A DNA stretch of 64,000 nt from Burkholderia sp. Bp8992 (GTDB lineage: Bacteria; Pseudomonadota; Gammaproteobacteria; Burkholderiales; Burkholderiaceae). Position 1 is the stretch's first letter, and each line of letters opens with the position of its first letter. Position numbers and translations under genes: made by a program. This document shows, piece after piece, positions 1 through 22,879 of the stretch. The stretch lies in the NCBI RefSeq assembly GCF_003853705.1, contig NZ_QTQI01000001.1, positions 310,001-374,000 of the forward strand. Direction: 5' to 3'. The notes beneath the pieces were generated by a model that saw nothing but the letters and a program-made list of their open reading frames with translations, ran no database searches and was not told where the DNA came from.

Positions 1-402
1 CTGGTCGCGGTCGTGACGCTCGCGCCGTCGCGCAATCGCCGCACCGATCTGGCGGAGGAGGCGCAGCGCCTCGCGAACCTGCTCGAATCGGCCGGCGACG
101 AGGCGCAGGTGCGATCGATGCCGATCGCATGGCAACCGGTCGGCGGCGGCTATCGCTTCGTGCAGCGCACCGACAGCGGCAGCTGGGCGCCGATGACCGA
201 CGATCTCTATCGCGCACGCCGCTGGGGCACCGAGGTAACGGGCGTGTCGGTGCGCTACACCGGCGGCGGCGAAGTGCCGTCGCGCGTGGTGCTCGGCAGC
301 GAAAGCATCGACGTGCCCGTGACGATCACGCTGTGGTCCGGCGACGTGCGGATGGCCGTCGTCGGCACGGGCATCGGCAGCTTCGTCGTGCGCCGGCCTT
401 GA
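1..402 (+). CDS. gspH: Type II secretion minor pseudopilin GspH, 5' truncated by the window edge
   Basis: The reading frame is open from base 1, beginning with the hydrophobic residues LVAVVTLA, and stops at 400-402, so the start and most of the N-terminal pilin helix lie upstream. The remaining part has the GspH layout: the end of the hydrophobic helix, then an amphipathic stretch (RTDLAEEAQRLANLLESA), then a beta-rich globular domain ending GTGIGSFVVRRP. GspH caps the type II secretion pseudopilus in the inner membrane and periplasm. The neighbouring sigma/anti-sigma genes and the separate gspK at 6.3-7.3 kb suggest that a type II secretion cluster continues to the left. The family call is fairly sure; which type II system it belongs to is not. 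Confidence 0.75.
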   Translation: MVAVVTLAPSRNRRTDLAEEAQRLANLLESAGDEAQVRSMPIAWQPVGGGYRFVQRTDSGSWAPMTDDLYRARRWGTEVTGVSVRYTGGGEVPSRVVLGSESIDVPVTITLWSGDVRMAVVGTGIGSFVVRRP

Positions 403-585
403 GCGACGCGTGGCGCCGCGCGCGAACACGATGGATGAACACGTCTGGATTGAATCGCGCCGCTGCATGCTTCACCTGACTGTCACACAGCCCGCTCACA
501 ATCTGTCGTTCGCTTGCGACGGAGCCGCTCCCGGGGGCGCGCGCTTCGGCACGCGGCGTGCAACTCCACTTCCGTCCAGGGATTC

Positions 586-1332
586 ATGACTCGTTCACGG
601 GCGCCGACCGGTGTCCTGGCGCTCGTCGCGTGGCTCGCGCTGGTCGTGCTGTGCATGCGCGGCGTGCACGCGCAGGAGACCGGTTCCATCGGCCGCCAGC
701 CGGGCCGCGCGGTGCATTTCGATCTGCCCGCGCAGCCGCTCGCGAAGACGTTGCAGGATTTCGCGCGGCTCACCGAGCTGATCGTGCTCGCGCCGGCGCC
801 GCTGCTCGACGGGCGCACGAGTGCGCCGGTCCAGGGCGATTTCACGCCGCGCGACGCGCTCGAGCGGATGCTGGCCGGAACGGGGTTGCGTGCGGAATTC
901 TCGCGTCCGGACGAAGCGATCATCGTCGCGCAGCCGGCCGCCGAGACGCCGCCCGCGACGGCCGACACGCCGGCGGATCCGGCGCTGCCGATCGACGGGA
1001 TCGGCGATTCGGGCGATCGGCGCGCGTTCGCGGGCCTGCTGCAGGCGCATCTGATCGATGCGCTGTGCGCGCAGCCGGCAGCCGTGCCGGGCAGCTATCG
1101 ACTCGTCGCGCAGGTGCGCATCGACAACAGGGGGGCGGTGGTGGCGGTCAACATGGTGGCATCGAGCGGTTCGGCCGCCCGCGACGCGGCGGTGATGCGC
1201 GCGCTGCGCGCGCTGAAGCTGGACGATGGGCCGCCGGCAGACTTGCCGCAGCCGGTCACGATCCTGCTGCGCCCGGCCGGCAACGGCGTGCATTTCCGTT
1301 GCCCGGCGCCGCAGCCGGCCGTCCGGGGCTAG
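586..1332 (+). CDS. Periplasmic signalling protein: STN domain plus TonB-like C-terminal domain (VreA-like)
   Basis: 248 residues. A signal peptide ends near residue 30 (GVHAQ). An STN (secretin/TonB N-terminus) domain spans about 43-115, with the typical FDLPAQPLAKTLQDFA start. A linker rich in Ala, Pro and Asp leads to a TonB-C-like domain at about 150-240 (VAQVRIDNRGAVVAVNMVASSG). No plug or beta-barrel follows, so this is not a normal TonB-dependent receptor. The ATG at 586 follows AGGGA, whereas the longer frame would lack a leader. Six bases separate it from the ECF sigma gene, and a FecR gene follows. From memory this is the architecture and gene order of VreA in the P. aeruginosa Vre/PUMA3 system. 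Its likely role is to pass a periplasmic or surface signal to the anti-sigma factor. The domain call is confident; the VreA equivalence is an inference. Confidence 0.8.
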   Translation: MTRSRAPTGVLALVAWLALVVLCMRGVHAQETGSIGRQPGRAVHFDLPAQPLAKTLQDFARLTELIVLAPAPLLDGRTSAPVQGDFTPRDALERMLAGTGLRAEFSRPDEAIIVAQPAAETPPATADTPADPALPIDGIGDSGDRRAFAGLLQAHLIDALCAQPAAVPGSYRLVAQVRIDNRGAVVAVNMVASSGSAARDAAVMRALRALKLDDGPPADLPQPVTILLRPAGNGVHFRCPAPQPAVRG

Positions 1333-1338
1333 GCCGCC

Positions 1339-1887
1339 ATGTCCGACAGCAACCGCTCCGGGCTCAGGCATCTGCTGGCGACGCGCTACGCGTACCTGGT
1401 CAGGCGGCTCGAACGCGTGACGGGGTCGAAGGACGGCGCCGCCGATGCGCTGCACGAAACCTGGCTGCGCCTCGAGAACGCGAACGTCTCCACGCAGGTG
1501 ACGAACGCGGACGCCTATATACTCGGGATGGCGAACAATGTCGCGATCGACCAGCATCGGCGCGAACGGCGGCATCTGCACGACGACGACGTCGAGACGC
1601 TGCTGGAAATGCCCGACGAACTCGCCGATCCCGAGCGCATCGTCGCGGCACGCCGCAAGGTCGAGACGCTGAAGGACGTGCTGCGCGGCCTGCCGCCTCG
1701 GCGCCGCGCGATCCTGCTGGCCGCCCGCGTGGACGGCCTGCTGAACCGCGAGATCGCCGAGCATTTCGGTATTTCGCTGCGGCTCGTCGAAAGCGAGTTG
1801 AGCGCGGCGATGAAGTACTGCCTGCAGCGCATGCAGGAAGACGGTGATTCGTACACGGGCACGCGAGGCGGCCCGCGCAAATTTTGA
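1339..1887 (+). CDS. ECF-family RNA polymerase sigma factor (FecI/VreI type)
   Basis: 182 residues, the usual ECF length. The sigma-2 region lies at about 10-80 (YAYLVRRLERVTGSKDGAAD, then HETWLRLE and YILGMANNVAIDQHRR). A sigma-4 helix-turn-helix lies at about 112-165 (LRGLPPRRRAILLAARVDGL, then NREIAEHFGISLRLVES). It is placed six bases after the STN/TonB-like gene and overlaps the upstream end of the FecR frame, the classic receptor-sigma-anti-sigma arrangement. It should redirect RNA polymerase to a small regulon when released by the anti-sigma factor; the transport cluster from 8.4 kb onward is the obvious candidate target but no promoter consensus could be proved. The family call is secure; the regulon is an inference. 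Confidence 0.9.
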   Translation: MSDSNRSGLRHLLATRYAYLVRRLERVTGSKDGAADALHETWLRLENANVSTQVTNADAYILGMANNVAIDQHRRERRHLHDDDVETLLEMPDELADPERIVAARRKVETLKDVLRGLPPRRRAILLAARVDGLLNREIAEHFGISLRLVESELSAAMKYCLQRMQEDGDSYTGTRGGPRKF

Positions 1888-1898
1888 GCATCCGGACG

Positions 1899-2894
1899 AT
1901 GACGAAAGCCCAGGCCCAACCTGCCCACGACGAACTCGACGAAGCGAGTGCGTGGCTGCTGCGTCTGCGCTCGGGAGAAGCGGGCCAGGCCGAAGCCGAT
2001 GCGTTCGAGCGCTGGTGTGCCGATCGTCCGCAAGCCGCCGATCTGCTGCGCGATACGTGGAGCTCGCTGCGCACGGCGGCGACCGAACTCGCGCACGAGG
2101 AGCGCACGGCTGCTGCCTGGGCAGACGTTGCAAAGCGCGAACGCACGATGCGCACCGGACGCCGCGCGTTCATCGGCTTCGCGGTCGCGGCCGGCACATC
2201 ATGGCTCGCGGTGCGGCCGCCGATGCAGCTGTGGCCGTCGCTCGGCGACATCGCGGCCGATTACCACACGGGTACCGGCGAGCAGCGCAGCGTCGCGCTG
2301 TCGTCGCGCGTGACGGTCGAGCTGAATACGCAGACGCGCCTCGACGTGCTGCCCGCGAGCGATGCCGCGCATGGCGTCGAAGTCGTCGCGGGCGAGGCCG
2401 AGATCGACGCGGCCGCACCGCCGGCCGGCCGTGCGACGCCGATCCAGCCCGTCACCGTGGTGGCGGGCGGCGGCCGCATGCAGGCGACGGTCGCGCGCTT
2501 CAACGTGCGGCGCACGGGTACGCAGGTCTGCGTGACCTGCCTGTCCGGCACGGTCGCGCTCGAGCATCCGCGCGGCGCACGCACGCTGAACGCCGACGAT
2601 CAGGTCGTCTACGACGATCGCGGCGTGCAGCCGGTGTCGCGGATCGATCCGGGCGCCGTCAGCGCATGGCGGCGCGGGATGCTGGTGTTCAACGGCGTGC
2701 CGCTGTCGGACGTCGTCGACGAGATCAACCGCTACCGGCGCGGCAAGGTCATCTTGCGCAGCGCGTCGCTCGGCGCGAACCGGATGCAGGCGCAGTTCCC
2801 GATCACGCGGCTCGACGACGTGATCGACATGGTCGGCCGCCTGTATGGCGCGCACATCACGCGCCTGCCCGGCAACATCGTGCTGCTGAGCTGA
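1899..2894 (+). CDS. FecR-family anti-sigma factor (VreR-like)
   Basis: 331 residues from the ATG at 1899; a TTG at 1884 would overlap the sigma stop. The N-terminal cytoplasmic anti-sigma domain (DUF4880) spans about 15-60 (EASAWLLRLRSGEAGQAEAD). A single membrane segment lies near 95-115 (RRAFIGFAVAAGTSWLAV), the periplasmic FecR domain covers about 130-245, and a short STN-like C-terminal domain follows at about 255-330 (GMLVFNGVPLSDVVDEINRY). It should hold the ECF sigma factor at the membrane and release or activate it when the periplasmic STN protein reports a signal. The C-terminal STN-like part is common in this family and is where the receptor signalling domain docks. Confidence 0.88.
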   Translation: MTKAQAQPAHDELDEASAWLLRLRSGEAGQAEADAFERWCADRPQAADLLRDTWSSLRTAATELAHEERTAAAWADVAKRERTMRTGRRAFIGFAVAAGTSWLAVRPPMQLWPSLGDIAADYHTGTGEQRSVALSSRVTVELNTQTRLDVLPASDAAHGVEVVAGEAEIDAAAPPAGRATPIQPVTVVAGGGRMQATVARFNVRRTGTQVCVTCLSGTVALEHPRGARTLNADDQVVYDDRGVQPVSRIDPGAVSAWRRGMLVFNGVPLSDVVDEINRYRRGKVILRSASLGANRMQAQFPITRLDDVIDMVGRLYGAHITRLPGNIVLLS

Positions 2895-3057: not shown

Positions 3058-3160
3058 GGGCGTCGTCGGACCCGAGGCGTGGGTGGCAAGCGCCCCGGCC
3101 GCGCAGCGATGCGCGGGGTGGGGAAGGTGTGTCGAATGAGCTTCGGGCGGTGGCGTGATC

Positions 3161-3421
3161 ATGAACGAATCGCAACGGGAATCGGATTCCGGCGACGCGG
3201 ACACGCGCGCCGATGCGATCCGCGAGGGCGCGGTGCGCTGGCTGCTGTGGCTGCGCGCCGGCGACACGACGGAGCAGGAACGCGACGCTTTCGGGCGCTG
3301 GCGCGCGCAGAGCGACGAGCATGCGCGCACGGTCCGCGAACTGATCTGGATGTGGGCCGTGCTGGAGACGGTCGGCCGCCAGGAGCCCGGCGAGCCGGGC
3401 GGGTCGACGCGCACGCATTGA
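3161..3421 (+). CDS. Orphan FecR N-terminal (DUF4880) domain protein
   Basis: 86 residues from the ATG at 3161; a GTG at 3155 would add two. Residues about 20-75 (GAVRWLLWLRAGDTTEQERD, then AFGRWRAQSDEHARTVRELI) align well with the cytoplasmic anti-sigma domain of the full FecR gene just upstream. There is no membrane segment and no periplasmic FecR domain, and the frame ends with an ordinary stop. It may be a remnant of a second anti-sigma gene, or a free cytosolic sigma-binding domain that competes with the membrane-bound one. The Shine-Dalgarno is weak, which leaves room for a pseudogene interpretation. Confidence 0.6.
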   Translation: MNESQRESDSGDADTRADAIREGAVRWLLWLRAGDTTEQERDAFGRWRAQSDEHARTVRELIWMWAVLETVGRQEPGEPGGSTRTH

Positions 3422-4377: not shown

Positions 4378-4559
4378 GCCGGTGCCTCGTGCATCGATTG
4401 CGGGCGGACCGTCGCGACGGCGCGGCGTCGCGCGGATCGGGTCGCCCACGATGCTGCGGTGTCGCCGGCGCGCCGTCAAGAGCGAACGCATCGCGACGCA
4501 CGCATGCGCATGCCGTCGCGGCGGCCCGCGCGATCAACCAGACAGTGTGGGGTATCCCG

Positions 4560-6191
4560 ATGATGCGCACGATCGTGGAACGCTTTGTCGAGCAGAGCCC
4601 GATGACGATCATGACGCGGCTCGTGCTGCAATGCGCGCTGCACGACGACTGGGTCGGCGCCGCGGCGGATGCCGGCGACGAGCCCGACGGCGAGTCGATC
4701 CGCGAGGCGCTGTTTGCCGTCGCCGTCGACGCGATCGCCGCGATTGCCGCGCGGCAGCGGACGCCCGATGCCGCCGCGGCCGTCGCGCCGGGGTTGGGTG
4801 CGACCGTGACGGCGCTGCACGATTGCATGAGCCGGTGGCGCTCGGGCTGGGGGCGCGCGCTGGCCAGGGACAGCGTCGACCTGCTGCTGCCGGTTGCGTC
4901 GGGGTGCAGCGTCGACGGCGCGCGCGCAGTCGACGGGATGCGGCTGCGCGTGCTGGACGGGTTCGGCGAGGCCTGCGCACCGCGGGCCGACGGTTGCGGC
5001 TGCGGGCGTGCGTGCGACGACCCCGCGCGCGATGCGGCGGCGGGCGGTGTGCGCGTCCTGCCGGTCTACGATCCGGATCTCGGGATGATCGTCGACCTGC
5101 TGCCTTGCGAACGCGGCCGGTCGCACGAGCGTGCCTTCGTCGGCGCGCTGCTCGAGACGGTCCGGCCCGGCGAGCTGTGGATCGTCGACGGGCGGTTCGA
5201 TACGGACGCGATCCTGTCCGGCTGGCCGCGCCGCGGCGGCGCATTCGTGCTGCGCGAATACGGCCGCTCGGCCGCATGCCGGCCGCTTGGCGACTGGCAG
5301 GAAGCCGGCGTGTTCGGCGGCGGCTGCGTTCGCGAACAGTCCGTCGGGATGGCCGGCGAAGGCGGCGTGTCGGGCGCGTTTCGGCGGATCGAATGGCACG
5401 GTGACGAGACGCCCGGCGACATCGTCACGCTGCTGACCGACCTGCCGGCCGAGCGGTTCGATGCGCCGCAGGTCGTGGCGCTGTCGCGCCGGCGCTGGCG
5501 CGACGCGTTGCCGCTGTCGCTCGAGCCCGTCACGGGCGGCGCGCCGTTCGGCGCCGTGCCCGCGCGCGCGGCGCTGCTGGCGTGCGGGATCGCCGCCTTC
5601 GCATACAACGCGTTCAGCGTGATGGCGCGCGTGGTCGGCGGTGCGCTCGATCTCGACGCGCGGGACGTCGACCGCCTGCCGTCGCTGATCGCCGACGGCG
5701 TGACGGCCACCTATGCGGGCATGATGATCGCGCTGCCGCCGGAGTGGTGGGCGCGCTACGACCAGTTGCCGGCGGCGACGCTGGGGCAGATCGTGCACAT
5801 GCTCGCCGTGCATGTCGACCCGCGCAGCGAGCGGCGCCGGCGCCGCGACAACCGGCTGTCCGCGAAGTCGCAGGCGTTACTGCGCGCGGCAACGCTCGAG
5901 CGCCTGATGCACGACGACGGCGACGATCCGGCCGCGAACGTGTTCAGCCTGCGCACGATCGCGATGGCCACGCGCGACTTCAGCAGTAATCCGTCGAAGG
6001 CGCTGCGGCACGCAGGCGAGGCGCTCGTGATGGTCACCAAGTACAACCGGCCGATCGCATTGCTCGTGTCGATCGACGACTGGAACCGGCTGCTCGGCGA
6101 AGTGCGCGAGACGAGCTTCACGCGGCTGACGTTCGATGCGGCGGCGCAGGGCCCGCGACCGGTGACGTTGAGTGAATCGTCGCTGAATTAG
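4560..6191 (+). CDS. IS4-type transposase-derived protein fused to a C-terminal Phd/YefM antitoxin domain (PhdA-like)
   Basis: 543 residues. The N-terminus (RFVEQSPMTIMTRLVLQCAL) is like that of IS4-group transposases. A DDE-like core follows: first Asp region AVDGMRLRVLDG (D125/D133) and second Asp in LWIVDGRFDTDAI (D210). The third site, where the family has RW-x-I-E, reads RW-R-D-A (313-316), so the catalytic Glu is replaced. Residues about 468-515 (MATRDFSSNPSKALRHAGEA, then LVSIDDWNRLL) are a Phd/YefM antitoxin fold. No terminal inverted repeats or target duplication were found at either edge and no toxin gene adjoins. It looks like a domesticated, catalytically inactive transposase acting as a DNA-binding regulator. 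From memory, P. aeruginosa PhdA (PA0691) sits at the equivalent place between the TPS genes. The fusion is clear; its function is an inference. Confidence 0.75.
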   Translation: MMRTIVERFVEQSPMTIMTRLVLQCALHDDWVGAAADAGDEPDGESIREALFAVAVDAIAAIAARQRTPDAAAAVAPGLGATVTALHDCMSRWRSGWGRALARDSVDLLLPVASGCSVDGARAVDGMRLRVLDGFGEACAPRADGCGCGRACDDPARDAAAGGVRVLPVYDPDLGMIVDLLPCERGRSHERAFVGALLETVRPGELWIVDGRFDTDAILSGWPRRGGAFVLREYGRSAACRPLGDWQEAGVFGGGCVREQSVGMAGEGGVSGAFRRIEWHGDETPGDIVTLLTDLPAERFDAPQVVALSRRRWRDALPLSLEPVTGGAPFGAVPARAALLACGIAAFAYNAFSVMARVVGGALDLDARDVDRLPSLIADGVTATYAGMMIALPPEWWARYDQLPAATLGQIVHMLAVHVDPRSERRRRRDNRLSAKSQALLRAATLERLMHDDGDDPAANVFSLRTIAMATRDFSSNPSKALRHAGEALVMVTKYNRPIALLVSIDDWNRLLGEVRETSFTRLTFDAAAQGPRPVTLSESSLN

Positions 6192-6260: not shown

Positions 6261-7256
6261 TCAACTCGTCAGCCGCCGCACCCAGATGACCGACGTCCAC
6301 GCGAAATTGCCGCTGCCGTAGCGCGCGATCAGCGTGTCGATGCGTGCGTTGATCCGCGCCGAATGCACGCGGCAGTGCACGATGAAATAGCCGCTGTTCA
6401 CGCCGACGGCCGAGCCGTCCGGCAGCGTCGGGTTGCCGCCTTGCGCGGGCAGCAGGTATTCGGCGATGTCGCCGGTGCTGACGAAATACGCAGTCGCGCG
6501 CCGGTCGACGAGCCGCTTGGCCTGGCTCGCCGACAGCGTCGGGATCGCGGCGACGAGCACGGGTTCGGTCGCGGTGTTCGCGTTGACGACGGTCAGGTCG
6601 GGCAGGATCGTGACGAACGGCGCAAGCGTGTCGATCGCATGCGCGTCGTAGCCGGGAATGCGGGCGAGATCGTCGACGGACACGAGCTGCAGCGGCCAGC
6701 CGCCCGGGCCGTTCGCGTCGCGCAGCGAGCGCAGCATGTAGTCGGCCGTCGGTTGCGCGAGCGCCGGATCGAGCGACAGCTGGACGAGCAGGCGCCGGTA
6801 CGCCAGTACGCCTTCACCATTGGACTGCCACGGCTTGCCGGGCGCGACGCGCGACACGAGATTCGTCAGGTTGAAGCGCGCCTGCGCGTCCTCGACGCTG
6901 CCCGAGATCCACGCGCGCGACAACTCCGCATTGACCGCCAGTGCGTCGGACGGCAGCAGGTCCGAGAGCGGCACGTCGGCGACCGGCGCCGACCACGGCT
7001 GGCCGACGAACGTGACGTTCGACGTCGCGCTTTGCGCGCGCAGCGTCGCGCGTGCCCACTCGACCGCGGCGCGTTCGATCCACATCGTCTGCGTCGCGAG
7101 CCGCTGGTTCTCGACGTCGCGTGTCGCGACCTGCTGGCGCCACAGTACGCTGGCCGCGAGCGTGGCCGCCAGCGCGACGACGAGCAGCACCGTCACGATC
7201 GCGATGCCGCGTTCGCGCCGTGCGTGCGCCGTCCGTCCTGTCCCGTATCGATGCAT
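6261..7256 (-). CDS. gspK: Type II secretion minor pseudopilin GspK
   Basis: 331 residues. The leader MHRYGTGRTAHARRERG ends in the prepilin peptidase site, followed by the pilin helix IAIVTVLLVVALAATLAASV. The large globular region carries GspK features: IERAAVEWARATLRAQ, a long alpha domain with LVQLSLDPALAQPTADYMLR, DDLARIPGYDAHAIDTLAPF, and the conserved INANTA-like motif VVNANTATEPVLVAAIPTLS. Length matches the family (about 310-340). GspK crowns the pseudopilus tip with GspI and GspJ. Unusually, it is not next to other gsp genes: a membrane protein precedes it and the partial gspH lies 5.9 kb away on the other strand. Confidence 0.88.
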   Translation of the reverse strand: MHRYGTGRTAHARRERGIAIVTVLLVVALAATLAASVLWRQQVATRDVENQRLATQTMWIERAAVEWARATLRAQSATSNVTFVGQPWSAPVADVPLSDLLPSDALAVNAELSRAWISGSVEDAQARFNLTNLVSRVAPGKPWQSNGEGVLAYRRLLVQLSLDPALAQPTADYMLRSLRDANGPGGWPLQLVSVDDLARIPGYDAHAIDTLAPFVTILPDLTVVNANTATEPVLVAAIPTLSASQAKRLVDRRATAYFVSTGDIAEYLLPAQGGNPTLPDGSAVGVNSGYFIVHCRVHSARINARIDTLIARYGSGNFAWTSVIWVRRLTS

Positions 7257-7873: not shown

Positions 7874-8428
7874 GTTTCGTTCTCAATAGCTAGGACGAAG
7901 CGGGCAGCCGAAAACCGCAGGATTTCGCGCGTGCTCGCGATGCCGCGGTGCGGTGTAAACGGTCCCGCGTGGGTTTCGCGCGAACGCGTGCCGTGTTTTC
8001 GCGAGCGTTTCGTGAATATCTTCAGCGGAATGTCACAAAAACTTCCCGGTTGAAACCGGAGGATTGTCGGGCCGCACGCTGGCCGGCCGCGTTTTCGCGT
8101 GCACGTCGGCCAGGCAACGACACGTATACGAAAAAGGGGGCCACGCAAGGTCATGCGCCGCGTCTCGCGAGTCTCGCGCGAGGGAGCGGCTGCGCGCATT
8201 GCAGGCCGCTTGCGTCGACCGCTCGCCGGTGCCGGCGGATCGGTCGACGTCACGCGAAAAAAACATTGCGGCAATGCGCGCTTCGTTCCGTCTAGGTAGG
8301 TGGGAGCTGCGACTTGGTGCGTCGCGCGCGGCCCCGTTCGCGACCGACGCGCGTGCGTCGGGCCGGCGGGCGGGAGTACGCAAGCGGGCACATTTTTTCT
8401 CATCAGGCGGCGTGAAGCCGACAGGTGC
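7874..8428. other. 555-bp intergenic region before the export cluster
   Basis: No convincing gene is seen here. It separates the leftward gspK unit from the long rightward array. It holds an inverted repeat CCGGTT-GA-AACCGG at 8046-8059, a second one CATTGC-G-GCAATG at 8264-8276 just after an A7 run, and an 8-bp palindrome CGTATACG near 8123. The Shine-Dalgarno for the next gene is poor. The region is large enough for the main promoter, operators and a long leader of the export cluster. Confidence 0.5.
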
Positions 8429-10248: not shown

Positions 10249-10400
10249 GTTCGGATCGGCAGTAGCAGAAAGCATTGCGCAGTTCATGATAAGGATGGCG
10301 AATCAATCGTCATCAAAGTGAAACAGGCAACTGATAGCGGAGCGAGCGGCTGGTGCAGTGCGGCTTCGCTGCGATCCGGAACAACAAAGGGGAATGGCGC

Positions 10401-14353: not shown

Positions 14354-14357
14354 CGCG

Positions 14358-15056: not shown

Positions 15057-15148
15057 CGATGCGCGAGAGAGACCACGCAAGAATCATGGGGCAGCGCCGT
15101 CGCACGGATGCTGCCGGAAAAGAAACGAAAATTGTTCGGAGTGCTTCG

Positions 15149-16960
15149 ATGATTCGGAAGATGAACGAACGGGGTGGGGTGCCCCGCAACGGCGCGCTGC
15201 CCGCGCGCCTGTCGCGTGTCGGCGCGGCGGTGCTGACGCTCGGGCTGACGTGCACGTCTGCCGCGCACGGGCAATCGCTCGAAGCGCAGGCGGCATCGGG
15301 GAAGGCCGCGCCGACGGAAAGCGTGGTGATCAACCTGATCAACCTGCTCGTGAAGCGCGGCGTGCTCACGCAGCAGAACGCCAATGAGCTGATCAGCGAG
15401 GCGCGCACGGAAGCCGTGCAGGCGAGGTCGGCGCGCGCGTCGGGCGCGCCGGTCGTGGCGGGCGGCGTGGTCAACCCGCCGACGCAGCCGGGCGACGTCG
15501 CGGTGCCGTACGTGCCGCAGCTCGTGCGCGACCAGATCCGCGACCAGGTGAAGCAGGAAGTGATCGCGCAGGCGAAGGCCGAGAACTGGGCGCAGCCGAA
15601 CACGTTCCCCGACTGGGTGTCGCGCATCAAGCTCGACGGCGACCTGCGCGTGCGCGACGAATATCACTTCTACGGCAGCCGCAACGCGAACAACGTCACG
15701 AATTTCGCGGCGATCAACCAGGGCGGCGGGTTCGACATCAACCCGAACACCAACACGACGCAGCTGCCGACGCAGAACACCACGCAGAACCGCAACAACC
15801 TGCTGCGCTACCGCGCACGGCTCGGCGTGACGGCGACGCTGTCCGACGAAATGACGGCCGGGCTCCAGCTCGCGAGCGGCAACGACAACGGCCCGGTTTC
15901 CACCACGGGAACGGCCGGCGGCGGCTGGGGCAAGAAGAACATCTGGCTGAACAAGGCGTTCTTCGCGTACAAGCCGACGTCGTGGCTGAACCTGACGGCC
16001 GGCCGTTTCGACAACCCGTTCTTCAAGTCGGATCTCGTGTTCTCCGACGACCTGATGATGGACGGGCTCGCCGCGAACCTGCGCCATGCGCTGCCGTGGA
16101 ATCCGGACGTCACGCTGTTCGGCACGCTCGGCGTGTTCCCGATCCAGTACACGAGCGAGAACTTCCCGTCGAACAGCACCGAAAAGGCCGGCAGCGACAC
16201 GAAGTGGATGTTCGGCGCGCAGTTCGGCGCGGACTGGAAGATCGACGCGAAGAACCGGCTGCGCGGCGCGGTCGCGTACTACGACTTCCAGAACATGCGC
16301 GGCACGCTGTCGTCGCCGTGCGCGCTGGGGCAAGGCCCGACGAGCTGCAGCACCGACAACGAGGCGCCCACGTTCATGCAGGGCGGCAACACGCTGATCG
16401 CGCTGCGCAACATCGTGCAGAACCCGAACCTCGCGCCGGGAATGACGCCGCAGCCGCAACTGTTCGGGCTTGCGTACAACTACCGGCTGCTCGACCTGAA
16501 GGCGCAGTGGGACACGGTGGTGGCCGACCGCTTCAAGCTGCGGCTCGACGGCGAATACGTGCGCAACCTCGCGTACAACGACAACAAGGCGTTCGCGGCG
16601 GCGTCGCTGCCGGTCAACAACTATGAATCGACGTCGGTGAGCGCGACGCGCGCCGACTATCGCAGCGGCCCGAACGGCTTCCTCGCGAAGGCGACGGTCG
16701 GCGAGCCGGAACCGCGCGAGAAGGGCCAGTGGAATTTCTCGATCGCGTACAAGTACCTGCAGCCGGACGCCGTGCTCGATGCGTTCAACGATCCCGACTT
16801 CCATCTCGGCGGCACCAACGCGCGCGGCTACGTGATCGGCGCTGCGTATGCGGTCGCGCGCGACACGTGGGTGTCGGCCCGCTACCTGAGCTCGAAGGAA
16901 GTGTACGGGCCGCCGGTGTCGATCGACGTGTTGCAGATCGAGCTCAATGCTCGCTTCTGA
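15149..16960 (+). CDS. Putative outer-membrane porin (Porin_5-like)
   Basis: 603 residues from the ATG at 15149, which has CGGAG seven bases upstream; a longer in-frame start at 15053 overlaps tonB but adds a charged non-signal stretch. The signal peptide ends near HGQS. A helical segment (VVINLINLLVKRGVLTQQNA) precedes a long barrel region with alternating aromatic strands, e.g. IKLDGDLRVRDEYHFYGSR, LNLTAGRFDNPFFKSDLVFS and a C-terminal QIELNARF ending in Phe. This matches the proteobacterial putative porin family. Inside a TPS/Ton operon it may be the Ton-linked outer-membrane partner or an accessory channel. Confidence 0.8.
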   Translation: MIRKMNERGGVPRNGALPARLSRVGAAVLTLGLTCTSAAHGQSLEAQAASGKAAPTESVVINLINLLVKRGVLTQQNANELISEARTEAVQARSARASGAPVVAGGVVNPPTQPGDVAVPYVPQLVRDQIRDQVKQEVIAQAKAENWAQPNTFPDWVSRIKLDGDLRVRDEYHFYGSRNANNVTNFAAINQGGGFDINPNTNTTQLPTQNTTQNRNNLLRYRARLGVTATLSDEMTAGLQLASGNDNGPVSTTGTAGGGWGKKNIWLNKAFFAYKPTSWLNLTAGRFDNPFFKSDLVFSDDLMMDGLAANLRHALPWNPDVTLFGTLGVFPIQYTSENFPSNSTEKAGSDTKWMFGAQFGADWKIDAKNRLRGAVAYYDFQNMRGTLSSPCALGQGPTSCSTDNEAPTFMQGGNTLIALRNIVQNPNLAPGMTPQPQLFGLAYNYRLLDLKAQWDTVVADRFKLRLDGEYVRNLAYNDNKAFAAASLPVNNYESTSVSATRADYRSGPNGFLAKATVGEPEPREKGQWNFSIAYKYLQPDAVLDAFNDPDFHLGGTNARGYVIGAAYAVARDTWVSARYLSSKEVYGPPVSIDVLQIELNARF

Positions 16961-16972: not shown

Positions 16973-17644
16973 ATGAACACCACCACTCGCAGGATGCTGT
17001 CCGCCGCCGTGGCCGGCGCGCTGCTGTTCGCGGCCGGCGGCGCGCATGCGCAGAGCATCGAGGACAAGCTGCGCAGCCAGTTGCGCTCGACCGTGCAGGA
17101 GCTGCGCCAGCTGCAGGACGGCCAGGCGCAGTTGCAGAGCGACAAGGCGGCGGCCGAGAAGCAGCGCGACGACGCGCTCGCGCAACTGAAGGCGATGCAG
17201 GGTCAGCTTGCGGCGGCCCGCGGCGACTCGGGCGCCGAGGCGGCCGCGAAGCGCGCGCTCGCGCAGGAGCGGGCGGGCCGCGAGCAGGATGCGAAGTCGC
17301 TCGCGAAATACAAGGCGTCCTACGAAGACCTGCTCGCGGTGTCGCGCGCCCGCGATGCGCAGCACACGCAACTGCAGAAGGACGCCGCCGCGCGTGACAC
17401 GCAACTGAAAACCTGCCAGGCACACAATGCCGAGCTGTATCGCGTAGGACACGAGATTCTCGACGCGTACGAGCATGTCGGGATCGGCACGTTCTTCTCG
17501 TCGCGGCAGCCGTTCGCGCAGTCGGCGCGCGTGAAGTACGACGATCTCGCGCAACGCTACGGCGACGCGCTGTATGCGGGCAAGTACGACCCGGCCGCAC
17601 GTGCGGCCGTCGCGGCACCGGCATCGGCTGCAAGCGCACCGTGA
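16973..17644 (+). CDS. Exported coiled-coil protein of the export cluster
   Basis: 223 residues. A signal peptide ends near residue 27 (GGAHAQ). About 30-150 is an almost unbroken coiled coil rich in Gln, Lys, Ala and Glu (LRSTVQELRQLQDGQAQLQS; KAAAEKQRDDALAQLKAMQG). A small C-terminal domain follows (TCQAHNAELYRVGHEILDAY; VKYDDLAQRYGDALYAGKYD). It starts 12 bases after the porin gene. It is probably a periplasmic rod or chaperone-like component; I do not know a named family. Confidence 0.75.
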   Translation: MNTTTRRMLSAAVAGALLFAAGGAHAQSIEDKLRSQLRSTVQELRQLQDGQAQLQSDKAAAEKQRDDALAQLKAMQGQLAAARGDSGAEAAAKRALAQERAGREQDAKSLAKYKASYEDLLAVSRARDAQHTQLQKDAAARDTQLKTCQAHNAELYRVGHEILDAYEHVGIGTFFSSRQPFAQSARVKYDDLAQRYGDALYAGKYDPAARAAVAAPASAASAP

Positions 17645-17703
17645 GCGGGCAGCCGGGCACGTCATTGAAATTCATCGATTCGTCGAATACGGGGGACACC
17701 GAC

Positions 17704-18291
17704 ATGCAAGACAAGCAACCGAACGCCGGCGACGAACGCACGGCACACGATGCGCCGATCGAAGCGATCAGCGCCGACCGCCTGGCCGACGTGCTGCGCC
17801 GCGCGGGCTACCGCGTGACGGCGGCCGAGCAGAACGGCACGGTGCAGCTGATGAGCGCGAGCCAGGGCATCGGCTTTGCGGTGCGCTTCGGCAACCCGGC
17901 AGCGCCGCTTGCGCCGCAGGGTGCCGACACGCCGCTCGCCGCACTGCCGTACATCGACTACACGCTGTCGTGCGTGCTGCAGGTGCAGGGTGACCTGCCG
18001 GCCGAACTCGTCGCGGACTGGAACCGCACCAAGCGCTTCGCGCGTCTCGCGAGCCACGGGCAGTTTCTCGCGCTGGAGATGGACGTCGTCGTCGCGGGCG
18101 GCGTGTCGGAACGCTACCTGCGTTCGACGATCGAGCTGTGGGACCGGCTGATCCAGGAGTTCCTGCTGCACCTGCGCAATCGTCCCGCGATGGCCGAGCA
18201 GGAAGCGGCGGCGCGTGCGGCGGCGGGCGAGCGGCGCGGCGAGGCGGCAACTTCCGCCGCGGCCGGGATCGAGGCGGCCGCGCAATCATGA
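17704..18291 (+). CDS. YbjN-like (type III secretion chaperone fold) cytoplasmic protein
   Basis: 195 residues from the ATG at 17704, with GGGGGA seven bases upstream; a GTG at 17641 overlapping the previous stop is an alternative. Residues about 20-150 match the YbjN/CesT-like fold: ADRLADVLRRAGYRVTAAEQ, GFAVRFGN, then ADWNRTKRFARLASHGQFLA and LEMDVVVAGGVSERYLRSTI. The C-terminal tail is Ala/Glu rich. There is no signal peptide. YbjN-type proteins act as small binding or chaperone proteins. The stop overlaps the next start by ATGA, showing coupling within the export operon. Confidence 0.7.
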   Translation: MQDKQPNAGDERTAHDAPIEAISADRLADVLRRAGYRVTAAEQNGTVQLMSASQGIGFAVRFGNPAAPLAPQGADTPLAALPYIDYTLSCVLQVQGDLPAELVADWNRTKRFARLASHGQFLALEMDVVVAGGVSERYLRSTIELWDRLIQEFLLHLRNRPAMAEQEAAARAAAGERRGEAATSAAAGIEAAAQS

Positions 18292-18707
18292 TCGTCGCGC
18301 GCCGGATCGGCGCCGCGCTGCGCGCGTGGCTGCCGGGCCGCCCGCGATCCGGCGCGACGGCCGTGCATGATGCGCCCGCCGCGTGGGGCGACTATGCGCA
18401 ACATACGGCGCGCTGGTTTCAGACGGCGCTCGATGGCGACGATGTCGCCGCGAGCCGCCTGCGCGGCGATGTCGAGCGTTGGGCCGATGCGCTGGCCGAT
18501 GCCGGCGACGCCGAGCCCGTGCTGCCGGTGCGTGCGTGGCTCGACCGGCGCGGGCGGGTGACGCGCGTCGACAGCGCGGCGGCCGGGCCGGCGGCGCTCG
18601 ACGCCGCGCTGCACGCTGCGCTCGTTGGCAGGGCGGTCGGCCTGGCGCCGCCGCGCGGGATGGCGCAACCGCTCGTCCTGCGCGTGACGCTGACGGGCGC
18701 GCGCTGA
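18288..18707 (+). CDS. Small TonB C-terminal-like protein (first of two in the cluster)
   Basis: 139 residues. It overlaps the YbjN-like gene by four bases. The second half (VLPVRAWLDRRGRVTRVDSA, then LDAALHAALVGRAVG and LVLRVTL) matches the beta-alpha-beta pattern of a TonB C-terminal domain. The N-terminal part is a basic helix (IVARRIGAALRAWLPGRP) that is not a clear signal peptide or membrane anchor, so localisation is uncertain. The protein at 22391 has the same layout and is probably a paralogue. It may dock onto the same outer-membrane partner as TonB or interact with STN-type domains. Confidence 0.6.
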   Translation: MIVARRIGAALRAWLPGRPRSGATAVHDAPAAWGDYAQHTARWFQTALDGDDVAASRLRGDVERWADALADAGDAEPVLPVRAWLDRRGRVTRVDSAAAGPAALDAALHAALVGRAVGLAPPRGMAQPLVLRVTLTGAR

Positions 18708-18753: not shown

Positions 18754-19644
18754 ATGATGACGAAAATGAAGATGCGGGCGATGGTGGCAGGCAGTCTCGT
18801 GCTGGGCGCACCGTTCGTCGCGCATGCCCAGGACGACGTGATCGCGAACGCCGCGCAGGCGTCCGTCACGCAGGCCGACTTCGCGGCGCTGTTGAAGACC
18901 GTGGGCCCCGAAGGGCGCGAGCGCCTCGCGGCCGATCCGGCGGCGCTGGACCAGGTCGTGCGTGCGACGCTCGCGCAGAAGGCCGTGCTGGCCGAGGCGA
19001 AATCGAAGGGCTGGGACAAGCAGGCGCAGGTGCAGGCGGCCGTCGAGCAGGCACAGCGCGACATCGTCGTGCGCAGCTATCTGGCGTCGGTGAACGCGCC
19101 GGCGGCCGATTATCCGTCGGACGCGGAGCTCCAGTCCGCGTACGACAAGAACCGCGCGGCGTTCATGGCGCCGCGTGCGCTGCATGTCGCGCAGATCTAC
19201 ATCGCTGTGCCGCCGAACGCGGACGCCGCGACGCTCGACAAGGCGCGCAAGCAGGCGGCCGATCTCGCGAGCCGGGCACGCAGCGGCGATTTTGCGGTGC
19301 TGGCGAAGGCGAATTCGCAGGACAAGGCGAGCGCCGCGAACGGCGGCGATCTCGGCTTCGTGCCCGATCAGCTGATGGTGCCGGCGGTCCGCCAGGCGGC
19401 CGACGCGCTGAAGCCGGGCCAGGTCTCCGCGCCGATCCAGACGCCGTCCGGCTTTCACGTCGTGAAGCTGATCGAGATACGCGCGGCCGCGCCGCGCCCG
19501 CTGGCCGACGTGAAGGAGCAACTGCGCGCGATGCTGCGCGCGCAGCGCACGCAGCAGAATGCACAGGCGTATCTCGCGAAGCTGGCCGCGAACGCGCCCA
19601 TCAACGAAGACGCGCTGAAGAAAGCGCTCGCGTCCGCCCGGTAG
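18754..19644 (+). CDS. Periplasmic parvulin-type peptidyl-prolyl isomerase (PpiC/SurA-like)
   Basis: 296 residues. A signal peptide ends near residue 24 (VAHAQ). An N-terminal SurA-like helical region spans about 30-125 (LDQVVRATLAQKAVLAEAKS). A parvulin domain lies at about 128-245 (RALHVAQIYIAVPPNADAAT; GGDLGFVPDQLMVPAVRQA; IQTPSGFHVVKLIEIR). It should help fold outer-membrane or secreted clients in the periplasm, fitting the TpsB/porin neighbours. A PpiC-type gene is also present, from memory, in the P. aeruginosa PUMA3 region. Confidence 0.88.
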   Translation: MMTKMKMRAMVAGSLVLGAPFVAHAQDDVIANAAQASVTQADFAALLKTVGPEGRERLAADPAALDQVVRATLAQKAVLAEAKSKGWDKQAQVQAAVEQAQRDIVVRSYLASVNAPAADYPSDAELQSAYDKNRAAFMAPRALHVAQIYIAVPPNADAATLDKARKQAADLASRARSGDFAVLAKANSQDKASAANGGDLGFVPDQLMVPAVRQAADALKPGQVSAPIQTPSGFHVVKLIEIRAAAPRPLADVKEQLRAMLRAQRTQQNAQAYLAKLAANAPINEDALKKALASAR

Positions 19645-19652: not shown

Positions 19653-20480
19653 ATGGAAACCGTCCGTTCGACGCCGCGCGTCGAGGTGCCCGACGCGCGC
19701 ACGCCGGGGCGGCGTCGCGCGGCCGCCGCCGACCGTCCGCGCATGCCGAAGGCGAACCCGTGGCCGGGCCGGCCCGGCGAGTGGCCGACGCATTGCCCGC
19801 TGTGCTTCGGCGCGCTGGAGCCGCTGCCCGGTGCGGGCGGCTATGCGCGGCACCGGAGCGCGCGCTGTTCCGCGCAATGCGTGCTCACGACACGCCAGTA
19901 TCAACCGGACGAGCTGACGATACGCGGGGCGCGCGACGTGCAGGTCGCGGCGTTGCATCGCGAGCGTTTCGTCGCGCAGTGGCCGCGCCATTACGCGCTG
20001 ATGCGGCGCGCGTGGCCCGCGCTGACGATCGGGCGTTTCATCGCGGTGATCGCGTGCGTGGATGTCGCGGATCTCTGGTCGTACCGGATGTTGCGCGACG
20101 ACGATCTCGCGGCCGTGCTGCTCGTGCTGGCCGGCTTCCTGCGCGTGCCGGAGGTGTCGGGCGCCGCTGCGCCGGTCGACGACGCGCGCGCGCCCACGGT
20201 GCGATGGGTGCGGTTCTGGTTCGACGCGAGCGTGCGCGACGTCGGCGATCTGTGGACGGCCGGCAGCACCGCGCCGCCGCTGTTTCGCGTCGACTATCGG
20301 GAGCCGCTCGTCACGCCGTATCCGACCGGTGCGCAGGTGCACGCGTGGCAGCCGGTCGACGGCATGCGCGACGCGTGGGCGCAGCACGCCGACGCGCATG
20401 AACCGGCCGTCGACGCGGCCGAGCGCGCGGCGTTCGAGCGTTTCCTCGCGCGTGCGCAGGCGCCGGGCGCGAGTGTATGA
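19653..20480 (+). CDS. Hypothetical protein with a possible four-cysteine metal site
   Basis: 275 residues, starting 8 bases after the isomerase gene. After a basic N-terminus, residues about 48-75 hold CPLC and then CSAQC separated by 20 residues, a possible zinc-binding knuckle pair. The rest is a mixed globular sequence (HRERFVAQWPRHYALMRRAW; RWVRFWFDASVRDVGDLWTA; EPLVTPYPTGAQVHAWQPVD). No signal peptide or membrane helix is visible. I do not recognise the family. Its tight packing in the export operon is the only hint of function. Confidence 0.65.
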   Translation: METVRSTPRVEVPDARTPGRRRAAAADRPRMPKANPWPGRPGEWPTHCPLCFGALEPLPGAGGYARHRSARCSAQCVLTTRQYQPDELTIRGARDVQVAALHRERFVAQWPRHYALMRRAWPALTIGRFIAVIACVDVADLWSYRMLRDDDLAAVLLVLAGFLRVPEVSGAAAPVDDARAPTVRWVRFWFDASVRDVGDLWTAGSTAPPLFRVDYREPLVTPYPTGAQVHAWQPVDGMRDAWAQHADAHEPAVDAAERAAFERFLARAQAPGASV

Positions 20481-20527: not shown

Positions 20528-20878
20528 ATGAAGGTGCGACGTAACGGATTCGCGACGATCGTCTGCCTGCTGCTGGCGGCCGGCGCACACGCACCGGCAC
20601 CGGCCAGCCCCGGATCGGCGGCGAAGCCGGTGTGCGTCGATGCGGAAGTCGACGGCAAGCGCGCGCTGTCGTACGACTGCCTGAGCCAGCAGCTGAAGCC
20701 GACGGCCGAGCCGCAGGCGGGCGCATCGCAAACGGATTCGGAGCGGTTGTCGAAGCAGCCGTCGAACCGTCTCGGCACGTTCAACCTGTCGACCGAACGG
20801 AACCGCTTCGGCACGAACTGGGGCCGGTCGATCACGCCGCAGCGGCCCGATGCGCCGGTCGCGGTGCCGCCGAAGTGA
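20528..20878 (+). CDS. Small exported protein of unknown function
   Basis: 116 residues from the ATG at 20528 with AAGGAGG five bases upstream; the longer frame from 20477 overlaps the previous stop but lacks a signal. The signal peptide ends near ASPGSA. The mature part is short and polar with two cysteines (VCVDAEVDGKRALSYDCLSQ), possibly a disulfide, then Gln/Thr/Arg/Pro-rich sequence (NRLGTFNLSTERNRFGTNWG). It is probably an unstructured or binding periplasmic peptide specific to this cluster. Confidence 0.65.
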   Translation: MKVRRNGFATIVCLLLAAGAHAPAPASPGSAAKPVCVDAEVDGKRALSYDCLSQQLKPTAEPQAGASQTDSERLSKQPSNRLGTFNLSTERNRFGTNWGRSITPQRPDAPVAVPPK

Positions 20879-20922
20879 TGCCCGCGCCGCGCGATTGGCC
20901 GGAACCGACGAGGAACAGCGAC

Positions 20923-22344
20923 ATGAGAGCGGTCAGGCAGACGGGCCGGGCGATGGTGCTGCGGGCAATGGCGGGCATGCTCGCATTCACGTGCGCTTGT
21001 ACTTGTGCGCCGGCACGGTCGGCCGAGCGCGCCGCGCAGCCCGGTGCCGCACCGCCGACCGCCGCGCTGCCGAACTTCGCCGCGCTGGTCCGGCGTGTCG
21101 GTCCGGCCGTCGTCAACATCAGCGTCACGCGCGAAGTCACGCAGATGGGCATCCAGTTGCCGCCCGGCATCGCGCCCGATCATCCGCTCGCGCCGTTTCT
21201 CGCGCGGCGCGTGATCGGCAACCGTGAGGAAGTGAGCCTCGGCTCCGGCTTCATCGTCAGTGCGGACGGCGTGATCCTGACCAACCGGCACGTGGTCGGC
21301 GACGCCGTCGCCATCGACGTGAAGCTGACCGACAAGCGGCAGTTCAAGGGGCGCGTGATCGGCAGCGATCCCGTGTCCGATGTCGCGGTGATCCGCATCG
21401 ACGCGCACGACCTGCCGGTCGTCGCGACCGGCGACCCCGCGCGCACGGAAGTCGGCGACTGGGTGATGGCGATCGGCTCGCCGTACGGGTTCGCGAACAC
21501 GGTCACGCAGGGCATCGTCAGCGCGAAATCGCGTTCGTTGCCCGGCGAGCGCGCGATCCCGTTCATCCAGACCGACGTGCCGATCAATCCCGGCAATTCG
21601 GGCGGCCCGCTGTTCGACCTCGGCGGCCGCGTGATCGCGATCAACTCGATGATCTTCTCGAAGACGGGCGGCTACCAGGGGCTCGCGTTCGCGATTCCGA
21701 TCGATATCGCGCTCGACGTGAAGGACCAGTTGCTGCGCACCGGCAAGGTCACGCGCGGCCGGCTCGGCGTCGCGTTGCAGGAGGTGAGCCAGGCGCTCGC
21801 GCGCTCGTTCGGCCTCGCCAGCCCCGACGGCGCGCTGGTCACGATGGTCGAGCCGGACGGCCCGGCCGCGCACGCGGGATTGCAGGCCGGCGACGTCGTG
21901 CTCGCAGTCGACGGCAAGCCGGTGGCCGAATCCGCGGACCTGCTCGGCACGGTCGCCGGCATGCGGGCCGGGCGGCAGGCCGACCTGCTCGTGTGGCGTG
22001 CCGGCCGCGCGATGCACGTGATCGCGACGGTCGGCGCATTCGACAGCGGTACGGCGTCGGCAGGCGGCGAACAGGGGCCCGCACGGTTCGGGCTCGCGCT
22101 GCGCGCGGCGACCGAGCAGGAGCGCGCGCGGCTCGGCGTCGGCCAGGCGCTCGTCGTCGAACAGGCGAGCGGCCAGGCCGCGCGTGCCGGCTTGCAGCCC
22201 GGCGATGTCGTGCTGTCGGTCAACGGCACGCCGGTTGCGAGCATCGGCGCGTTGATGACCGAGATCGACGCCGCGCACGGCAACGTCGCGCTGCTCGTCC
22301 AGCGCGGCGGCACGCGGCTGTATGTGCCGATCGAGATCGGGTGA
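20923..22344 (+). CDS. DegP/HtrA-like periplasmic serine protease (S1C) with two PDZ domains
   Basis: 473 residues. A signal or lipoprotein-like N-terminus (LAFTCACTCAPARSA) precedes a trypsin-like domain at about 50-270 with a complete triad: His123 in TNRHVV, Asp153 in VSDVAVI and Ser226 in NPGNSGGP. PDZ1 spans about 285-365 (RGRLGVALQEVSQALARSFG) and PDZ2 about 380-470 (VVEQASGQAARAGLQPGDVV). It would degrade or refold misfolded envelope proteins. Its place beside the parvulin suggests dedicated quality control for the exported or outer-membrane proteins of this cluster. The extra cysteines in the leader make exact processing uncertain. Confidence 0.9.
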   Translation: MRAVRQTGRAMVLRAMAGMLAFTCACTCAPARSAERAAQPGAAPPTAALPNFAALVRRVGPAVVNISVTREVTQMGIQLPPGIAPDHPLAPFLARRVIGNREEVSLGSGFIVSADGVILTNRHVVGDAVAIDVKLTDKRQFKGRVIGSDPVSDVAVIRIDAHDLPVVATGDPARTEVGDWVMAIGSPYGFANTVTQGIVSAKSRSLPGERAIPFIQTDVPINPGNSGGPLFDLGGRVIAINSMIFSKTGGYQGLAFAIPIDIALDVKDQLLRTGKVTRGRLGVALQEVSQALARSFGLASPDGALVTMVEPDGPAAHAGLQAGDVVLAVDGKPVAESADLLGTVAGMRAGRQADLLVWRAGRAMHVIATVGAFDSGTASAGGEQGPARFGLALRAATEQERARLGVGQALVVEQASGQAARAGLQPGDVVLSVNGTPVASIGALMTEIDAAHGNVALLVQRGGTRLYVPIEIG

Positions 22345-22390
22345 GCGGGCGCGGCCGGGCGGCGCGCGCGTGATTGAAATCGGAGGCGGG

Positions 22391-22879
22391 ATGAAGCGAA
22401 TGCAGGAGCGGGGCGCAACCGGATGGCTGCGGGGAATCGTCATGGCGTGTGCGCTGGTCGCGGGGGCCGCGCCCGCCGTCGCGCAAACCGTCGGCGTGCC
22501 GGCCACGTGGATCCGTTATGGCCAACTCGCCGGGCAGCAGTTCCAGGCGTGGCTCGAGGCGGACGGCGCGGCAGCCGACCGGCTGCACCGCTATCTCGAA
22601 GCACGCGTGCTGAACGCGCGTGCCGATGCGCCGCCGCCCGCGATCGTCGTGCGCGCGTGGATCGGTGCGAACGGCACCGTCACGCGCGTCGAGTTCGCGT
22701 CGCTCGGCGATCCCGATGCGGACGCGACGCTGCGGCAGCTGCTCACGGCCGGCCCGCTGGCGGAACCGCCGCCGCCCGACATGCTGCAGCCGCTGCGCGT
22801 GCGCCTGCGGCTTGCGCCGAATCCCGATGCGCAGGCAGTCGATCCGGCGTCGTCACCGGCGGCGGCACGCGCGCCGTAA
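22391..22879 (+). CDS. Exported TonB C-terminal-like protein (second of two in the cluster)
   Basis: 162 residues from the ATG at 22391, preceded by GGAGG. A signal peptide ends near residue 32 (APAVAQ). Residues about 85-145 (AIVVRAWIGANGTVTRVEFA, then LRQLLTAGPLAEPPPPDMLQ and LRVRLRL) match a TonB C-terminal fold. There is no membrane anchor or proline-rich spacer, so it cannot transmit force by itself. It resembles the smaller protein at 18288 and the C-terminus of the STN protein at 586. It may be a periplasmic adaptor or competitor in signalling. Confidence 0.65.
   Translation: MKRMQERGATGWLRGIVMACALVAGAAPAVAQTVGVPATWIRYGQLAGQQFQAWLEADGAAADRLHRYLEARVLNARADAPPPAIVVRAWIGANGTVTRVEFASLGDPDADATLRQLLTAGPLAEPPPPDMLQPLRVRLRLAPNPDAQAVDPASSPAAARAP

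Follow-up and report, generated by a model that had tools for sequence, protein, structure and literature searches.

The 64,000-nucleotide stretch of Burkholderia sp. Bp8992 analysed here (contig NZ_QTQI01000001.1, positions 310,001 to 374,000; hereafter the window) opens with a locus in which genes for signalling, type II secretion and two-partner secretion (TPS) lie together. We ran Pfam, NCBIfam and self-built profiles on the open frames of window positions 1-26 kb. As the original prediction had it, the gene for the TPS pore, TpsB, is followed by its own ExbB-ExbD-TonB set, with profile matches across 10353-15056, and a porin and a parvulin lie downstream. That prediction did not recognise the periplasmic DUF2341 and LamG module carried by the ExbB-like stator. 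In whole genomes, the motor with this LamG stator was found almost only in bacteria with a TpsA exoprotein of the DUF3739 class. The central part of the locus contains the following genes:

10353..12053, plus strand: TpsB (PdtB-like), POTRA region and barrel (PF08479, E 8.7e-18; PF03865, E 7.7e-25)
12067..13923, plus strand: ExbB/TolQ-type stator preceded by DUF2341 and LamG (PF10102, PF13385, PF01618; AlphaFold2, Foldseek)
13943..14353, plus strand: ExbD, transmembrane Asp retained (PF02472, E 1.8e-28)
14358..15056, plus strand: TonB, tonB4-like (PF13103, E 2.3e-5)
15053..16960, plus strand: Porin_5 outer-membrane protein, PA0696-like by position and family name (PF16930, E 3.5e-191)
16973..17644, plus strand: predicted periplasmic coiled-coil protein, PA0697-like by position, without a Pfam family
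17641..18291, plus strand: YbjN-family protein, PA0698-like (PF10722, E 4e-9)
18754..19644, plus strand: parvulin-type prolyl isomerase, PA0699-like (PF00639, E 8.2e-23)

The stator gene encodes a 618-residue fusion in which DUF2341 (E 6e-18) and LamG (E 6.5e-25) precede an ExbB/TolQ core that is nearer to TolQ by score (E 2.9e-20, against 4.9e-12 for ExbB). An AlphaFold2 model built from a 48-sequence alignment reached a mean predicted local distance difference test score (pLDDT) of 84 and a predicted TM-score (pTM) of 0.61. Foldseek matched the core of the model to TolQ (TM up to 0.87 by target) and its LamG part to an arabinanase, AbnA, at domain 4 (TM 0.73 by target). The transmembrane Asp of the neighbouring ExbD is retained at all 78 sites located among 79 related loci, with one locus lacking a located site. 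The closest named locus among the matches listed was that of Burkholderia sp. BCC1644, whose stator is 98% identical. One related stator (G026:C3:1249038-1250868) is split over two overlapping frames, through decay or sequencing errors.

We compared the presence of DUF3739 and the LamG stator in three genome samples, which overlap in that G001, G080 and G155 are positive in both the phylum and the class sample. Among 61 relatives, with the stator scored by matches spanning its LamG part, DUF3739 and the LamG stator each occurred in 25 genomes and the two sets were identical; 38 genomes of this sample match the stator at E 1e-20, 13 of them through the ExbB core alone. The phylum sample of 299 genomes again gave identical sets, nine genomes for each. 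Here 141 genomes match at E 1e-20, those outside the nine through the core, and the stator of G342 was scored on a piece at the start of a contig that covers residues 334-610 (E 1.3e-67). For the class sample (284 genomes) the query was the LamG part and frames of 587-728 residues were taken, their cores not being checked one by one. DUF3739 exceeded the cut-off in 20 of these genomes (and fell below it in G578) and the LamG stator was found in 19, with 18 genomes in common; the mismatches are G461 and G555, with DUF3739 only, and G464, with the stator only. This stator count omits G461, G520 and G529, where the matches lie in frames of other sizes, and G461 is probably concordant, since 71 residues of a stator are present where one of its contigs begins. 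All ten genomes picked by their stator loci also carry DUF3739. Naive Fisher tests of the co-occurrence gave p values of 1e-17 and 2e-17, with kinship ignored.

TPS exoproteins in general do not track the motor. The generic TPS domain PF05860 was found in 105 of the 299 genomes, including all nine with the motor, and generic TPS was also present in 11 of the 13 motor-free genomes of the same genus that were tested (13 of 15 covered). The motor thus follows DUF3739 TpsAs and not TPS at large. G010 and G259 each have three DUF3739 TpsA frames and one stator, and G342 has two and one; a single motor may serve several TpsAs in these genomes.

The original prediction described the locus as missing its TpsA. 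Self-built TpsA_N and TpsA_C profiles indeed match no frame of the 64-kb window, and a 1,643-residue open frame at 56357-61288 is an NAD-glutamate dehydrogenase; a TpsA hidden in the window was therefore rejected. However, the absence is an artefact of the window edge, because the window opens inside gspH and the relatives have their TpsA just to the left. In the same genus the stator was present in 22 of 37 genomes, and for 17 of those 22 we inspected about 40 kb upstream. A giant frame carrying DUF3739 ends 4.1-6.3 kb left of the base-1 equivalent in all 17; it has 4,217-4,331 codons in 16 relatives and 3,455 in G009, where it falls about 850 codons below the others through decay or sequencing errors. 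The nearest genome carries, in this order, gspI, a pilin-like gene, a run of three TPR/GT9-like genes, TpsA, a minus-strand pair of PBP_like_2 genes, and then gspF, gspG and gspH, with the window equivalent after them. The two PBP_like_2 genes (L031:14979-17951 in the nearest relative) are possible cargo of the type II secretion system (T2SS). We infer that the TpsA gene of the window strain lies a few kb left of base 1. That the strain has truly lost TpsA and exports something else through TpsB would fit the absence of a profile match in 64 kb, but it is highly improbable given the cut gspH, the position of TpsA in every relative inspected and its place between T2SS genes in the nearest genome.

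The TpsA of the nearest genome has TPS-type motifs at its N-terminus and matches ordinary TpsAs of the genus in blastp at E 7e-12 to 1e-9. PF05860 gave no match to it at E 0.01; elsewhere, PF05860 matches the DUF3739-bearing frames themselves (G042, G053, G155, G190, G314 and G342). DUF3739 (E 4.5e-38) sits near its extreme C-terminus.

Conservation of the gene block was followed in the best 79 distinct loci from one scan of GTDB genomes that matched at least 501 relatives. Their titles include Burkholderia, Paraburkholderia, Trinickia, Alcaligenes, Bordetella, Pseudomonas brenneri, Luteibacter, Stenotrophomonas, Bradyrhizobium, Caulobacter and Verrucomicrobia. The Pseudomonas brenneri locus is L114, those of Luteibacter are L098-L100, L102 and L103, and Paraburkholderia kururiensis carries L092. 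Neighbours were counted in loci with enough flank only, on the same strand and by frame midpoints, with profiles built from these loci. In 73 of 75 loci the gene directly upstream of the stator is that of TpsB (the exceptions are L112 and L128), and in 76 of 76 the one directly downstream is that of ExbD. Neighbours also include a TonB-profile match (73/73), Porin_5 (71/72) and a PA0697-like protein (66/68), with YbjN and the peptidyl-prolyl isomerase at 48/67 and 43/67. As the TonB profile picks up further TonB-C proteins too (157 frames), its count does not single out tonB4. TpsB, the LamG-DUF2341-ExbB stator, ExbD, TonB, Porin_5 and the coiled-coil protein are thus kept as a block, and with TpsB, ExbD, TonB and Porin_5 so tightly placed beside the stator, the objection that the homologues might be scattered in other genomes does not refute the locus. 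In 20 ordinary TPS regions of the genus, used as a control, no ExbB, ExbD, TonB or Porin_5 match was found, with TpsB visible in 15. Anywhere in the fetched flanks of the 79 loci, the extracytoplasmic function (ECF) sigma factor was matched in 38, FecR in 47, the S1C protease in 25, PhdA in 23, TIGR03032 in 19 and APS kinase in 12. The two exceptional loci belong to genomes G327 (L112) and G384 (L128) of the samples, as judged by coordinates and E-values. In L112 a beta-helix protein follows stator, ExbD and TonB, and the DUF3739 frame of that genome is on another contig.

In ordinary TpsBs a helix, H1, acts as the plug, as described in the available text of PMC5422565. Under a single rule for signal cleavage and POTRA start, the motor-locus TpsBs have a median of 24 residues before POTRA1 (range 5-69; 66 of 79 measurable), Ala/Pro-rich by eye, compared with 45-63 in the ordinary TpsBs located in the control regions (n=14). 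The AlphaFold2 model of the window TpsB (49-sequence alignment; pLDDT 84, pTM 0.73) has POTRA domains and an Omp85-type barrel of 16 strands, counted by eye on the DSSP line, and its nearest solved fold is CdiB (6wim). Residues 1-48 of the model fall below pLDDT 50 and form a signal-type helix alone, with no ordered segment before POTRA1. By N-terminal length and composition, together with the model of the window protein, no plug helix H1 was found before POTRA1, and the motor-locus TpsBs appear to lack it. We treat a missing plug helix as a variant feature within type Vb secretion and not as a ground for exclusion from it.

On balance, and with modest confidence, we favour the reading that this is a PUMA3-type locus which exports a giant DUF3739 TpsA by a variant form of type Vb secretion, one with a Tol/Ton-type motor coupled to it. 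The ECF/FecR/STN-TonB switch would activate the locus; TpsA would pass the inner membrane and be kept export-competent by the parvulin and the S1C protease; and TpsB, without a plug helix of its own, would be gated by a partner. Proton flow through ExbB/ExbD would then move TonB and/or a ring of LamG domains, which would engage either TpsB or the C-terminal DUF3739 of TpsA. As a result the last translocation step would be driven, or the exoprotein would be held, tensioned and released in a SiiAB-like manner. Energised export, which the original prediction had suggested, is plausible and is better motivated by the co-occurrence of DUF3739 and the LamG stator. More tentatively, and with some doubt, we propose that such loci may form a distinct and widespread branch of type Vb, with an unplugged TpsB, a DUF3739 TpsA and a dedicated proton motor; its stator subunits would hold up a periplasmic crown of LamG domains, lectin-like and so of a sugar-binding-like design, which would grip the exoprotein and drive its export.

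Several observations weigh against motor-coupled export. The conserved Glu of TolQ and ExbB, present in the four TolQ chains and one ExbB chain aligned (number 176 in E. coli ExbB), is Ala in all 74 LamG stators where the position was located (residue 560 in the window stator; not located in five of 79), so the proton mechanism may differ. Six of the 66 motor-locus TpsBs have at least 45 residues before POTRA1, overlapping the ordinary lengths, and no TonB box was seen by eye in the TpsB N-termini inspected. A TpsA match lay inside the 10-kb flanks in only 30 of 79 loci. In L112, from a metagenome-assembled genome of Sphingomonadales, stator, ExbD and TonB are present, but neither TpsB nor Porin_5 was matched within 10 kb. 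At the genome level, G464 (85% complete) has the stator without a DUF3739 match and G555 (64% complete) shows the reverse, and G578 combines its sub-cut-off DUF3739 match with ordinary ExbB cores and no LamG stator. Type V export also works in vitro without added energy, according to the accessible part of PMC5422565.

Porin_5 tracks the motor as tightly as DUF3739 does: it was found in 24 of 25 motor genomes (not in G032), and in motor-free genomes gave a single weak partial match (G060). The motor's client could for this reason be the porin, with the motor energising Porin_5 uptake and TpsA capturing a ligand outside, a form of HxuCBA-like scavenging with a TPS pair. The near-constant place of Porin_5 beside the stator agrees with this, as do the HxuA/HxuB/HxuC precedent (in the available part of PMC5422565) and the response of the P. 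aeruginosa locus to phosphate starvation, reported in the accessible text of PMC4971064. However, in the Porin_5 protein Pfam recognises a porin domain at residues 90-635 and no plug domain of a TonB receptor, the stator directly adjoins TpsB and not the porin, and neither the DUF3739 link nor the shortness of the TpsB N-terminus would be explained. Among the 30 frames of 1-26 kb scanned by Pfam there was neither an outer-membrane client with a plug and TonB box nor a TonB-dependent receptor of the HxuCBA type, Porin_5 being the only candidate. No clear TonB box was seen by eye in the Porin_5 rows inspected, and a loose helical-hairpin pattern, which is not specific, fits the N-terminus of Porin_5 in 53 of 72. 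We regard a porin-serving motor as unlikely.

The motor might instead act only after translocation, holding, tensioning and releasing a TpsA whose C-terminal DUF3739 would stay in the periplasm. The location of DUF3739 near the extreme C-terminus of TpsA, its being the very domain that tracks the motor, and the SiiAB precedent (available text of PMC12204202) all speak for this. The periplasmic position of DUF3739 is putative, though, and sequence alone cannot separate this alternative from a driving motor; we judge it fairly unlikely. It is improbable that motor and porin are merely co-regulated, Tol-Pal-like envelope stabilisers unrelated to TpsA. The nearness of the stator core to TolQ agrees with such hitch-hiking, but the genome-wide co-occurrence of motor and DUF3739, seen even on separate contigs (L112), would go unexplained. 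For the motor, driving translocation, holding and releasing TpsA, and serving the porin are roles that the sequences do not separate.

The published P. aeruginosa order pdtB-exbB2-exbD2-tonB4-PA0696-PA0697-PA0698-PA0699, in which the available text of PMC7035377 gives PA0696 as a porin, PA0698 as YbjN and PA0699 as a peptidyl-prolyl isomerase, is reproduced in the window, which bears out its description as a Vre/PUMA3-like locus. Our comparison with the P. aeruginosa PUMA3 locus (vreAIR, hxc, pdtA, phdA, pdtB, exbB2-exbD2-tonB4, PA0696-PA0701) was made by published gene names. The two loci share content and order from TpsB to the isomerase, as well as the STN-TonB/ECF/FecR trio, PhdA and hxc-type T2SS genes. 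Of the PUMA3 neighbours, hxc-type T2SS genes, phdA, tpsB, exbBD, tonB and the PA0696 homologue lie in the window, and tpsA in the relatives only. The window locus differs in that T2SS genes flank the ECF trio on both sides, with TpsA among T2SS genes in the relatives, in a minus-strand gspK block between phdA and tpsB, and in the addition of a TIGR03032/APS-kinase cassette, an S1C protease and two orphan TonB-C proteins. In the B. vietnamiensis PUMA3 locus exbBD lies downstream of tpsB, the layout inferred here, and we know of no difference in the part of PMC2729926 available. Both of these clusters, that of P. aeruginosa and that of B. vietnamiensis, have been published already, as has the fact that they lie together with TPS and exbBD genes (the same part of PMC2729926). 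PMC2729926 also has PAO1 insertion mutants in tpsB, tonB and PA0696.

Generic TPS systems (FhaB/FhaC, CdiA/CdiB) have the same TpsB fold, and the TpsAs of the window's relatives appear to have a TPS-type N-terminus; the class described here differs from them by the short, apparently unplugged TpsB N-terminus, the dedicated motor, the porin and the C-terminal DUF3739 of TpsA. The SiiAB motor of type I secretion is likewise a proton motor of the ExbBD/MotAB class adjoining a secretion system, but it serves another outer-membrane route, and the available text of PMC12204202 mentions no LamG module for it. Ton-dependent secretion of PopC through Oar in M. xanthus is a precedent for using a Ton system in protein export, as proposed here, but that pathway employs a TonB-dependent transporter with a TonB box in place of a TpsB (PMC6434023, in its accessible part).

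The remaining genes of the locus are as follows:

1..402, plus strand: gspH/hxc-type pseudopilin, 5' end cut off by the window edge (PF12019, E 3.5e-5)
514..1332, plus strand: VreA-like STN and TonB C-terminal (TonB_2) protein (PF07660, E 1.3e-10; PF13103, E 5.8e-8)
1339..1887, plus strand: VreI-like ECF sigma factor (PF08281, E 2.7e-12; PF04542, E 8.3e-7)
1884..2894, plus strand: VreR/FecR-like anti-sigma factor (NF007296 (FecR), E 1.7e-20, under the model's own cut-off)
3155..3421, plus strand: 88-residue protein resembling the FecR N-terminal part alone (self-built FecR profile, E 1.8e-14)
4389..6191, plus strand: PhdA-like protein, IS4-type DDE and Phd/YefM domain (PF01609, E 1.2e-6; PF02604, 21.2 bits, under the 29.8 cut-off)
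6261..7211, minus strand: gspK/hxcX-like pseudopilin (NF037980, E 1.3e-73; T2SSK)
8300..9601, plus strand: TIGR03032/DUF4915 protein of the variable cassette, start likely about 8429 (TIGR03032, E 3.5e-131)
9502..10248, plus strand: APS kinase of the variable cassette (PF01583, E 5.6e-55)
18138..18707, plus strand: orphan TonB-C-like protein overlapping the ybjN end (self-built TonB profile, E 2.7e-14)
19653..20480, plus strand: conserved protein without a Pfam/NCBIfam match (self-built profile, 25 frames in 79 loci)
20632..22344, plus strand: DegP-like S1C protease with PDZ domains (PF13365, E 2.3e-32; PDZ)
22322..22879, plus strand: orphan TonB-C-like protein without a Pfam match (self-built TonB profile, E 1.2e-20)

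Profile matches thus recover the predicted trio in a row (514-2894), the type II pseudopilins GspH and GspK, the transposase-Phd regulator, with its Phd match under the Pfam cut-off, and the DegP-like protease, as well as TIGR03032, APS kinase, YbjN and two extra TonB-C proteins. An intact counterpart of gspH is found in the nearest relative (L031:11748-12317). A conserved minus-strand protein at 3565-4491, without a Pfam or NCBIfam match, lies beside phdA in 15 of 17 relatives by tblastn. The 88-residue protein at 3155-3421 is kept in all 17 relatives at 60-94% identity (tblastn) and may be an anti-sigma or sigma-activating tail that stands alone, and not a gene remnant.

The idea that the locus is specially enlarged was not supported. 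The TIGR03032/APS-kinase cassette is a variable insertion, present in nine of 17 relatives and absent from eight; where present, it separates tpsB from a shared non-coding region upstream. Most loci of Burkholderia, Paraburkholderia and Trinickia also have the S1C and TonB-C genes. We rejected TIGR03032 as a core component: a strong match (E <1e-50) occurs in 28 of 299 genomes, among them G001 alone of the nine motor genomes. Elsewhere (10 frames scanned, from 7 of 20 loci), TIGR03032 has GT41 with TPR as a neighbour in four of seven, HlyD in two and FG-GAP/RTX in three. A role for the cassette in modifying or decorating TpsA is a guess. The three tandem TPR/GT9-like genes stand directly before TpsA in 17 of 17 relatives. 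In the nearest relative (L051:10931-17781) they encode proteins of about 760 residues with TPR repeats and a weak GT9-like C-terminus (E 7e-5 to 4e-4, passing the cut-off in one of the three), and they are candidate glycosyltransferases for TpsA.

Control of the locus by the ECF factor is suggested by analogy with the P. aeruginosa papers. Non-coding stretches at about 8006-8074 and 8258-8310 are conserved in the 17 relatives, with the cassette present or not, have no Rfam match and may represent promoter or untranslated-region elements of TIGR03032/tpsB. No promoter model matched the conserved non-coding blocks upstream of 8300. Two sets of upstream sequences were compared, those of TpsA in 16 genomes and those of TIGR03032/TpsB in the window and 17 relatives; each has conserved stretches, and no motif shared between the two sets was defensible by eye. 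A search for Pho boxes gave one site, at two mismatches, no more than the 2.06 expected by chance at three or fewer.

The link between LamG stators and DUF3739 TpsAs in whole genomes is new here. In the literature searched, mostly outside subscription journals, we found no paper linking DUF2341/LamG stators to TPS and none on DUF3739. The co-occurrence ties together the exbB2-exbD2-tonB4 system of P. aeruginosa, called still uncharacterized in the available text of PMC7035377, the DUF2341 appendage of ExbB-like stators, listed under domains of unknown function in the accessible part of PMC12505986, and a class of TPS. The orphan LamG stator thereby gains a likely client, and a TPS class with a putative, testable energised step is now named. 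If the favoured reading is true, these bacteria would link a motor to an export route that has been regarded as independent of an energy source.

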